NCBI GenBank assembly: GCA_023299935.1 | Contig: JALZVV010000027.1 | Span: 1 to 40,603 of the forward strand | DNA from: Dokdonia sp. | GTDB taxonomy: Bacteria; Bacteroidota; Bacteroidia; Flavobacteriales; Flavobacteriaceae | Reading direction: 5' to 3' | Length of the DNA stretch: 40,603 bases | Part shown: positions 35,694-39,104 of the stretch, piece by piece | Layout: every line of letters starts with the position of its first letter | Numbering within the stretch: the stretch's first letter is position 1 | Notes under the pieces: generated by a model | The model's database searches: none | The model's input: only the letters and a program-made list of their open reading frames with translations | Told to the model about the DNA's origin: nothing | Program-made: the position numbers and the translations under genes

Positions 35694-35752
35694 TAAAGAT
35701 ATTGCTAAGAAACGGGAATAAATGTTAAGGGAATTACACAAAAACTATACAA
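35694..35752 (-). promoter_or_regulatory. Candidate activator site (TTGTAT-N5-TTGTGT) plus -7 element (TATCTTTA) for the 35618 operon
   Basis: Minus strand TTGTATAGTTTTTGTGT at 35752-35736; TATCTTTA starts 51 nt downstream (35701-35694). Confidence 0.5.
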
Positions 35753-35879
35753 TTCTTAATTGTAGTGCTTGATAATTATCAAATTATTGATTTTGTTTTG
35801 CATTATTGTGAATATGACCTTTTTCTAGCTTAAAGATTAAACAAACTTTTTAGAATAGAAAGTTGGATAAGGTAAGTTT

Positions 35880-35901
35880 TTGTATTAATGTTGTATTAAT
35901 G
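35880..35901 (+). repeat. Perfect 11-bp tandem repeat TTGTATTAATG x2 in the divergent regulatory region
   Basis: TTGTATTAATGTTGTATTAATG at 35880-35901. Confidence 0.85.
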
Positions 35902-36079
35902 TTGAGGCGATATTGAATCTTGTATAGTTAATCGAGACTGTTAAAGTGTACTGTTATAGTAAATAACGTATATTATTTTAAACAGATAATGATTTGTTGA
36001 CTTAATATTGTAGTGGAAATTTAAACGAAGCTTCAGTGTTTTTTTTGAGTCTAATACTGTTCTTTAGAATAAAGATAAT

Positions 36080-38878
36080 ATGGTTAAGGTTTTATTAAAG
36101 CTGTTATTTATTGTAACAACCAGTTTTATTGTAAGGGGACAGGAGCATCCCCCAGTAATAAATTATCCACCTCACGTTTATCTTGCCGACAATCAAAATT
36201 GGATGCTTAGTCAAGCTCAGGATAAAACGATCTATGTAGCAAATAATAGAGGGCTATTATCTTTTAATGGTTCGCAATGGCAACTATATCCTTCTCCTAA
36301 TGCGACCATTATGAGAGCGGTTAAAGCCGTAAAAGACAAAATATATACTGGTGCGTATAAAGATTTTGGAGTGTGGAAAGAAGAGGTCACAGGAAAATTA
36401 GTATACCATTCTATTGTCCAAGATAAAAAGCTGGAGATGGTAGAAGATGAACATATATGGAATATAGAAGCCTATAGACAATATGTGATTTTTCAGTCTT
36501 TAGATAACATTTATATCTATGACAGTGAGAAAAATACCATTCAAACAATTAATCCATCAGGACAGGTCGTACGCCTATATTTAGTTGAGGATGAATTGTT
36601 TTTTCAAGTAAGAGGAAAAGGGATTTATTCTATCGCTAATGGAAAGGCTATTCTTTATAATGACAATCAAATTTTCAAGGATCATAGCGTTATTAACGTC
36701 TTTGATTTTAAAGGAAAATTGATGGGTGTTACAGCAACTAAGGGTATTTATATTTTTGACAGAGATACGACGAGACTATGGGATAAATTGGCTAATTCGT
36801 GGTTAGAGGATATTAATGTGTATAGTGCCATAAGACGAATCAATGGTTCATTAGTTTTAGGGACTATAGAAAACGGAATTGTTCAATTTTCTGAGACGGG
36901 TGATTTGACCTATCAAATAAAGAAGGATAACGGACTTAATAATAACACGGCCTTAGCATTATTTGAGGATCAAGATCAGAACTTATGGATAGGACTTGAT
37001 GCTGGTATAGACTGCGTAAATAGTCATAGCCAGTTTAATCAATATATTGATACAGATGGAGAATTAGGTACTATATATGCCGCGGCGGTTGCTCATGGTT
37101 ATGTATATGTAGGCACAAATCAAGGACTTTTTTATAAACTAGAGAACTCAGAGGAACAGTTCGTTCGTATGGTCGGTATTGAAGGGCAGGTCTGGGACTT
37201 AAGTATTATTGATAATACGCTTTTTTGTGGTCATAATACAGGAACCTATATCATTAGTGGAAAAACTGCAGATCGAATTGCTCACATAGACGGGACCTGG
37301 GATATTAAGAAGATACCTGGACAGGAAGATCTTCTATTACAAGGTAATTTTGATGGGTTGTATGTGCTAGAAAAACTAGGAGAGCGCTGGCAATTGCGTA
37401 ATAAAGTTTCCAATTTTGACATTTCCTCTAAACATTTTGAAATACCTAATGAGAATACGGTTTTGGTAAGTCATGAATACAAAGGTGTATATGAGTTGAG
37501 TTTAGATCAAGATTTTCAAAATGCAATAAAGGTTTTTAAACATGAAAGTATTAGCACCTCAGAACACTCCAGTTTGGCTAGGCTCAGAGATGCGATATTT
37601 TATGCTACTAAAAATGGAATATTCAAGTATGATAACTCAGAAAATAAATTCACTCAGGAAAAAGAGTTAAGTACAATTTTTACTAATGAAAATTTTGTAA
37701 CAGCAAAACTTGTAGAAGATAGCGATAGGCTATGGGCTTTCACGAATAATGAATTAATTAGTATTACACAGGATAAATTGGACGGCTCCTATGGAGCGAG
37801 TTCTATTCCGTTTCCAATAGCCTATAGAAATACTGTAGCGGGTTACGAAATTTTTGTTCGCTTTCGCGAAAGCGAATACCTACTAGGAACCTCCAGTGGT
37901 TATATTCTGGTCGATACTGGAGCTAATTCTAAACAGGATTATAACATTAGATTGAATGAGATTAGTCGCAATGACTTAGGAGGTTTATCGCAAACTGTTG
38001 CTATGGATGTAGAAGGTGATTTTGAGTCGAGACAAAATAATTTATCCTTTGCATATAGTGTTCCAGAATTTGACAAATTTTTAACGACTCAATATGCCTA
38101 TAAATTGAATGGATTTTATGATAAATGGAGTGGTTGGGCTACAGATGCATCAGTGAGTTTTGAGAATTTGCCACATGGGGAATATACTTTTGAGGTAAAA
38201 GGTATTGTTGGCGATCGTGAGACGTTAAATCAAGCGAGCTATTCCTTTACAATACATAGACCTTGGTATATATCTAATCTTGCGATTGTGGTATATGTTA
38301 TTCTTACAATACTATTATTTACCGCCCTAAATTATTTTTATAAAAGATATTATAAGCGCCAGCAGGAATTGGTCTTAGAGCGTACAAAGCGCGATTTAGC
38401 CCTTACAACGCTAGAGAATGAAAAACAAATTATTGAATTAAATAATGCAAACCTTAAGCAGGATATTGATGCCAGAAATAGAGAATTAGCTGTATCTACA
38501 ATGAATATGGTAAATAAAAATAAGACACTAAATACCATTAAAAATGCCCTACTCAAAGCGGAAAGAGTTGATGATATAAACGATATTATTAAAATCGTAG
38601 ACACAACTTTAGAAAATGAAGAAGATTGGAATTTCTTTGAAAAAGCTTTTAATCATGCTGATAAGGACTTTTTTAGAAAAGTTAAAGATTTACATCCTTC
38701 TTTAACAGCAAATGATTTAAAGCTTTGTGTGTATTTACGACTAAACATGTCATCTAAAGAAATTGCTCCTTTACTTAACATCTCCTCACGAAGTGTTGAA
38801 ATTAAACGCTACAGATTAAGAAAGAAGTTAGAGATATCTAGGGATATTAACCTAAATGACTACTTCATAAACCTATAG
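36080..38878 (+). CDS. Membrane-spanning sensor regulator: periplasmic beta-propeller + Y_Y_Y domain + TM + LuxR-type HTH (no histidine kinase)
   Basis: ORF 932 aa; propeller repeats (NLWIGLDAGIDCVNSHSQFNQY), YKLNGFYDKWSGWATDASVSFENLPHGEYTFEVKG, TM LAIVVYVILTILLFTALNYFY, C-terminal HTH LTANDLKLCVYLRLNMSSKEIAPLLNISSRSVEIKRYRLRKKL. Confidence 0.87.
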   Translation: MVKVLLKLLFIVTTSFIVRGQEHPPVINYPPHVYLADNQNWMLSQAQDKTIYVANNRGLLSFNGSQWQLYPSPNATIMRAVKAVKDKIYTGAYKDFGVWKEEVTGKLVYHSIVQDKKLEMVEDEHIWNIEAYRQYVIFQSLDNIYIYDSEKNTIQTINPSGQVVRLYLVEDELFFQVRGKGIYSIANGKAILYNDNQIFKDHSVINVFDFKGKLMGVTATKGIYIFDRDTTRLWDKLANSWLEDINVYSAIRRINGSLVLGTIENGIVQFSETGDLTYQIKKDNGLNNNTALALFEDQDQNLWIGLDAGIDCVNSHSQFNQYIDTDGELGTIYAAAVAHGYVYVGTNQGLFYKLENSEEQFVRMVGIEGQVWDLSIIDNTLFCGHNTGTYIISGKTADRIAHIDGTWDIKKIPGQEDLLLQGNFDGLYVLEKLGERWQLRNKVSNFDISSKHFEIPNENTVLVSHEYKGVYELSLDQDFQNAIKVFKHESISTSEHSSLARLRDAIFYATKNGIFKYDNSENKFTQEKELSTIFTNENFVTAKLVEDSDRLWAFTNNELISITQDKLDGSYGASSIPFPIAYRNTVAGYEIFVRFRESEYLLGTSSGYILVDTGANSKQDYNIRLNEISRNDLGGLSQTVAMDVEGDFESRQNNLSFAYSVPEFDKFLTTQYAYKLNGFYDKWSGWATDASVSFENLPHGEYTFEVKGIVGDRETLNQASYSFTIHRPWYISNLAIVVYVILTILLFTALNYFYKRYYKRQQELVLERTKRDLALTTLENEKQIIELNNANLKQDIDARNRELAVSTMNMVNKNKTLNTIKNALLKAERVDDINDIIKIVDTTLENEEDWNFFEKAFNHADKDFFRKVKDLHPSLTANDLKLCVYLRLNMSSKEIAPLLNISSRSVEIKRYRLRKKLEISRDINLNDYFINL
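37857..37876. repeat. GCTTTCGCGAAAGC palindrome, copy 6 (inside regulator CDS), extended to 20 bp
   Basis: TTCGCTTTCGCGAAAGCGAA. Confidence 0.95.
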
Positions 38879-39012
38879 TAGGTACATCAGGAGCTATTTC
38901 ATATACATCATTACTACAACACAGACTGTTTTTTATTAATAAATCTCAGATTTTGTTTAAGTCTGCTTCTCTAAAATTACTATTTGTAGCATATATAACC
39001 TATGGTGTTATG

Positions 39013-39032
39013 CAAAAACTTAAACGTTTTTG
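39013..39032. repeat. Inverted repeat CAAAAAC-TTAAAC-GTTTTTG
   Basis: Perfect 7-bp arms between the regulator gene and the 39188 CDS. Confidence 0.5.
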
Positions 39033-39044
39033 TTAAAAATTACA

Positions 39045-39104
39045 TTGTATGCTTTTTGTATAGGGTTAAATTAAGGATTTGATAATTTTCTCATATTATA
39101 TTTG
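39045..39104 (+). promoter_or_regulatory. Candidate activator site (TTGTAT-N5-TTGTAT) plus -7 element (TATATTTG) upstream of 39188 CDS
   Basis: TTGTATGCTTTTTGTAT at 39045-39061; TATATTTG at 39097-39104, offset 52 nt. Confidence 0.5.

Follow-up and report, generated by a model that had tools for sequence, protein, structure and literature searches.

Laminarin, an algal storage sugar, makes up one of the sea's largest pools of sugar, and we found no account in the literature, at the level of DNA, of how its presence is sensed by Flavobacteriaceae and the genes for its use are switched on. The window examined here, a stretch of 40,603 nucleotides from a Dokdonia sp. metagenome-assembled genome (contig JALZVV010000027.1), raises this question with two transcription units that flank the gene of a membrane regulator (36080..38878, plus strand). 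On the minus strand, an operon at 20352..35618 encodes a glycoside hydrolase (Glyco_hydro_2_C), a CBM4_9 protein, GH16, GH149, GH17, and GH30 enzymes, a GPH transporter, and a GH17-related protein. The product of 25633-29142 within this operon (minus strand, 1169 aa) had been labeled a porin in the first-pass annotation and was instead identified as a GH149 1,3-beta-glucan phosphorylase (NF058639, 1791 bits). On the plus strand, a gene at 39188..40603, which runs off the contig, encodes a secreted CBM4_9 protein. The operon holds the laminarin-locus set of GH16, GH17, GH30, and GH149 together with a transporter, as do the laminarin loci of Formosa sp. Hel1_33_131 and Muricauda, where the transporter is an MFS protein (PMC6246565; PMC13188888). 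Unlike those loci, the Dokdonia locus showed no SusC/SusD pair, the third common target of the operator described below, on its contig. In Dokdonia relatives, the CBM gene occupies the position held by SusC in other genera. What element would couple the two promoters, and which protein would read it?

Both promoters carry a TTGTAT-N5-TTGTAT-like motif at a set distance from a -7 box, and the positions given for motifs and boxes in the first-pass annotation proved exact, as did its distances between them and to the start codons. Upstream of the CBM gene, the core motif TTGTATGCTTTTTGTAT lies at 39045-39061 on the plus strand within operator 1 (TTGTATGCTTTTTGTATAGGG, 39045..39065), and the -7 box TATATTTG (39097..39104, plus strand) begins 52 nt past the operator start, a conserved spacing. 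Upstream of the GH operon, operator 2 (TTGTATAGTTTTTGTGT, 35736..35752, minus strand) is followed by the box TATCTTTA (35694..35701, minus strand) 51 nt past its start. The motif starts lie 143 nt from the ATG of the CBM gene and 134 nt from that of the GH operon. Operator 1 was found as an exact sequence with a PWM score of 25.5 and recurs in 7/7 Dokdonia relatives; the right half of operator 2 matched the family consensus poorly (PWM below 11), and its left half and 51-nt spacing are kept in 6/6 Dokdonia loci.

Two AT-rich promoters might resemble each other by chance, and counts within the genome itself did little to settle the matter. The exact pattern TTGTAT-N5-TTGTRT occurred three times in the window and five times in the whole 2.6-Mb genome, three of these within one 4 kb, compared to two matches of a reversed control pattern. 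The remaining two exact genome matches were set aside, both being within coding ORFs. When three mismatches were allowed, 50 matches were obtained versus 36 for the control, a scan so uninformative that chance had to be excluded through conservation rather than through single-genome statistics. Alignment of Dokdonia intergenic regions revealed a strongly conserved block, TGTATG[CT]TTTTTGTATAG, at the CBM promoter and conservation of TGTATAGTTT at the GH promoter, where the -7 box lies at exactly 51 nt in all six loci, including one Dokdonia (L038) in which the right half-site of operator 2 is lost and the box spacing is kept. Each of the seven Dokdonia relatives with an orthologue has exactly one operator-plus-spacing match in its whole genome, at the CBM promoter behind the regulator gene, and the reversed control pattern gave none in the same seven genomes. 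Together with the family-wide counts given below, these alignments contradict a fortuitous resemblance, which we regard as practically excluded. Enrichment in front of orthologous loci was an outcome on which the first-pass annotation had staked the motif, and the motif was conserved in the seven Dokdonia relatives, across the family, and in two Bacteroidales.

The family was sampled with 301 Flavobacteriaceae genomes, of which 163 encode relatives of the regulator at E <= 1e-150. The family operator, TGTATRYTTTTTGTWKNGGT, was counted with the strict pattern TGTATRYTTTTTGTWKNG-N31-34-TANNTTT, which places TAnnTTT at 50-52 nt. This pattern yielded 116 sites in 84/301 genomes versus a single match of the reversed pattern, with the box at 51 nt in 88 sites, at 52 nt in 24, and at 50 nt in four. 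When the operator alone was used to find regulator-linked sites, TAnnTTT stood at 51/52 nt in 30 of the 31 obtained, and other offsets averaged 0.19. The first-pass annotation had described a direct repeat; the 11-bp distance between its two half-sites held, and its perfection did not, as the repeat is imperfect family-wide and the operator asymmetric, with the left half TGTAT differing from the right half TTGTWG-NGGT. The stretch separating operator from box shows weak conservation of GRATTY and of an A at position 40. A -33 TTG had been called dispensable at these promoters, and in agreement only 29/116 sites have TTG at 19-27 nt before the -7 box. Two Bacteroidales relatives of about 43% identity carry ACGTCTGTTTTTTGTTGAGGT, likewise with the box at 51 nt. 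The motif is thus confirmed, by sequence comparison, as a real family-wide operator in Flavobacteriaceae.

The distribution of the strict site followed that of the regulator, with sites in 84/163 genomes encoding it and in 0/138 genomes without it. Because the genomes are related, the Fisher values of the whole analysis (6e-29 and 1e-10) overstate independence. The other 79 of the 163 regulator-bearing genomes have no strict site, and many of these have relaxed sites. If SusC-type operons shared a generic T-rich promoter element, resembling an UP element and serving no specific regulator, this would account for the T run of the motif and for its place just upstream of the core promoter. Many SusC genes per genome are common in Flavobacteriaceae, yet the motif is absent from every one of the 138 genomes that lack the regulator, the 2.7 Mb of Formosa contain no more than two strict sites, and paralogous regulators carry another version of the motif, so that we consider a generic element extremely improbable.

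The regulator whose presence the operator follows is a protein of 932 aa with its closest named relatives in Dokdonia. Pfam and structural models place a propeller region at residues 26-612, Y_Y_Y at 667-725, a long helix at 729-770, and an HTH at 864-917, in the one-component layout of a periplasmic sensor, a membrane helix, and a cytoplasmic HTH. The best fold matches of the sensor were the double propellers of hybrid two-component systems (HTCS), with BT4663 and BT3049 as the PDB matches. Such systems (BT4663, BT3049, BT4673) share the periplasmic double propeller and Y_Y_Y sensor and continue into histidine kinase, receiver, and AraC domains, whereas no Pfam match to any of these three was found across the 932 residues of the window regulator, which has a putative LuxR-type HTH instead. 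The GerE score was 23.9 for the domain alone against a cut-off of 23.5 and 20.0, under the cut-off, for the whole protein; a GerE match was obtained in 9/10 orthologues. When residues 830-932 were searched with Foldseek, the best matches were LuxR/NarL (GerE) domains, with StyR, VraR, LiaR, and FixJ at the top and DosR and NarL lower, mostly at a probability of 0.96-1.0 and none with an E-value below 0.1. Compared to LuxR/NarL proteins such as LiaR, VraR, DosR, and NarL, the window regulator has a marginal Pfam score, is tethered to the membrane, and is paired with an asymmetric direct-repeat operator.

We consider it highly likely that the motif is the operator of this membrane-spanning one-component regulator (36080-38878), which would activate laminarin-type genes. 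The regulator had been put forward as the natural candidate for reading the operator, and three lines of sequence evidence support it in that role: the co-occurrence above, adjacency, and covariation with a residue of its HTH. As to adjacency, 76 of the 114 sites classified lie behind the regulator gene at 142-286 nt, 29 lie within 50 kb, and nine lie elsewhere. Another, co-inherited protein might read the laminarin-locus operator while the membrane regulator acts indirectly, and co-occurrence and adjacency alone cannot separate proteins that are inherited jointly. Against such a second reader, the motif tracks the regulator even where the neighboring target differs, being the CBM gene in Dokdonia and SusC elsewhere, and in Formosa the motif is kept at sites separated from the regulator by hundreds of kb.

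More telling is that the motif shifts with a single HTH residue, even between paralogues of the same genome. The residue is I908 in SVE-I-KRYR (codon 38801..38803, plus strand), which covaries with operator bases 5-6 and is a candidate for setting the specificity of the recognition helix. Sites were scored with a detector blind to the two bases after TGT and requiring the -7 box at 51/52 nt, and the set was extended to loci of more distant regulators, with 10 further loci not scorable for the HTH. Regulators with SVE[I/V]KRYR adjoin TGTAT in 43/44 cases. Those with SVETKRYR adjoin TGTTC, TGTCT, or TGTCG in 11/11 cases and TGTAT in 0/11, a count to be read with the caveat of ancestry as most SVET regulators belong to a single clade, and those with SVEMKRYR adjoin TGTAG in 2/2. 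Both kinds of pair, TGTAT and SVET with a non-TGTAT operator, coexist in seven genomes (G088, G263, G143, G154, G228, G178, G194). Recognition through the regulator's own HTH predicts such covariation and a third, co-inherited protein would not, and we therefore consider a second reader unlikely. By these counts, the covariation of regulator and operator is unusually clean.

In one clade of SVETKRYR paralogues (L241, L242, L245-L247, L250, L252, L161, L164), the regulator gene is followed at an unchanged distance by a separate operator, ATGTTCGTTTTTTATCGAGGT. The Mariniflexile member (L161) has sulfatases and SusC/SusD as neighbors and no laminarinases, so the SVET paralogue probably serves a glycan other than laminarin.

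The targets read at 20 sites away from the regulator bear on what the operator controls. At five of the 20, in five genera, the gene downstream encodes a homologue of the window's 1038-aa hydrolase (59-64% identity), and CBM4 and GH16 genes come next; most of the others stand before genes of secreted proteins akin to the product of the window's CBM gene, a target met with in many genera, and two stand before SusC/SusD. Homologues of both window targets thus carry the operator elsewhere, and the window's two promoters are standard members of one regulon.

The link to laminarin is drawn through Formosa. A close homologue of FbGH17A was accompanied by the regulator in 31/31 genomes, and one sampled genome, in which FbGH17A was found at 100% identity over 425 aa, is that of Formosa sp. 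Hel1_33_131. Only two strict sites are present genome-wide in this organism. One directly precedes the GH16-PKD-GH149-GH17A operon, and the other (G141:C1:1428705, L189) directly precedes a SusC/SusD/PKD-like operon more than 300 kb from the regulator, a locus that may be the published laminarin PUL 3. A weaker site, scoring 15.2 and with its box at 51 nt, lies between the regulator and the SusC gene of a GH3/GH16/SusD/SusC locus. By counting genes from published locus tags, the GH16-GH149-GH17A operon was assigned to PUL 2 and the GH3/GH16 locus behind the regulator to PUL 1. By published proteomics, the SusD protein FORMB_10080 of PUL 1 and the GH16 enzyme FORMB_m24690 of PUL 2 were detected on laminarin only (PMC6246565); laminarin induction of these homologous loci bears on the window's locus indirectly. 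In Zobellia, ZGAL_209-214 are reported to be laminarin-induced (PMC5613140).

In the mechanism we propose, the periplasmic double-propeller sensor would bind a beta-1,3-glucan oligosaccharide, presumably derived from laminarin, as the signal. The putative LuxR-type HTH on the cytoplasmic side would then occupy the two half-sites, TGTAT and TTGTWG-NGGT, one helical turn apart. The TAnnTTTG box of Flavobacterium psychrophilum extends from -12 to -5 (PMC9723704); by this measure the operator would lie at approximately -63 to -43, and its half-sites would begin near -63 and -52. From this position, directly upstream of the would-be -33 element, the regulator would contact or recruit RNA polymerase at promoters that have the TAnnTTT -7 box and lack a consistent -33 TTG. 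The GH operon and the CBM gene of the window would be switched on together, and in other Flavobacteriaceae the SusC/SusD operon behind the regulator would be driven as well. The direction of control is not readable from a DNA sequence, and a regulator bound at the operator could also be imagined as a repressor released by the sugar. The operator, however, does not overlap the core promoter but lies upstream of it, at approximately -63 to -43, and the consistent -33 TTG is missing, both of which are typical of activated promoters; SusR, moreover, has been described as an activator (PMC3878776). Repression thus appears quite unlikely, and activation is the reading we retain. With rather less assurance than for the pairing of regulator and operator, we favor the broader proposal that one membrane-tethered regulator, acting through an 11-bp direct-repeat operator fixed at -63, controls a family-wide laminarin regulon, and that residue 908 as I/V, T, or M sets bases 5-6 as AT, as TC/CT/CG, or as AG, respectively, thereby keeping paralogues apart.

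By architecture, the regulator resembles SusR (BT3705) and SusR2 (BT3091) of Bacteroides, which are likewise one-component, membrane-spanning proteins encoded beside glycan loci, with predicted direct-repeat operator motifs and a presumed activating role (Ravcheev et al. 2013, PMC3878776). The half-sites of the published SusR motifs are 67 or 77 bp apart and those of hybrid two-component systems average 21 bp, versus 11 bp here, and the window operator differs from the published SusR motifs in its fixed 51/52-nt distance to the -7 box (PMC3878776). For Muricauda lutaonensis, the published description notes a LuxR regulator as the first gene of the laminarin locus (PMC13188888), and no operator is described in the available portions of the Formosa and Muricauda reports (PMC6246565; PMC13188888). 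Our literature search retrieved no operator or regulator study for the Flavobacteriaceae regulator, which is weak evidence of absence as subscription papers were thinly covered. The operator and the regulon are new, while the kind of glycan regulator is known, and we do not regard this as a new type of system. Now that the operator, the regulator, and the fixed geometry of the promoter are defined, the whole regulon can be predicted from any genome or metagenome bin, even at loci far from the regulator, and the I/V/T/M covariation offers a directly testable rule for how cross-talk between closely related glycan regulators is avoided.

Dokdonia also has regulators that share this architecture at a greater distance (L043-L046, 26-30% identity), and the motif was not found behind them. 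The pairs L043/L044 and L045/L046 are followed by different large genes of outer-membrane type, upstream of which different blocks are conserved, for example ATAACGTTTTCGT and TTGATGTATTTGAAGAGTATT; these are probably further operators of this regulator family.

Two additional arrays of TGTTGTA-like half-sites, with spacings of 11 and about 29-32 bp, flank the regulator gene itself. The first, of TTGT(A) half-sites (35880..35929, plus strand), begins with half-sites 11 bp apart approximately 200 nt upstream of the regulator ATG and is conserved in Dokdonia; it includes the third exact TTGTAT-N5-TTGTRT match of the window (35880-35896, plus strand), which had been overlooked in the first-pass annotation. 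The second, of inverted TGTA half-sites (38883..38921, minus strand), lies just behind the regulator stop codon and is conserved in Dokdonia and at L042, L076, and L083. Pairs of TTGTA at 11 bp were counted six times upstream and eight times downstream of regulators versus 0.14-0.15 expected, the downstream count including some main operators. TAnnTTT was not found at 51/52 nt from either the 35880 or the 38883-38921 array, and for this reason the arrays were rejected as extra promoters of the same type and classed apart from the main operator. They may be autoregulatory or auxiliary sites.
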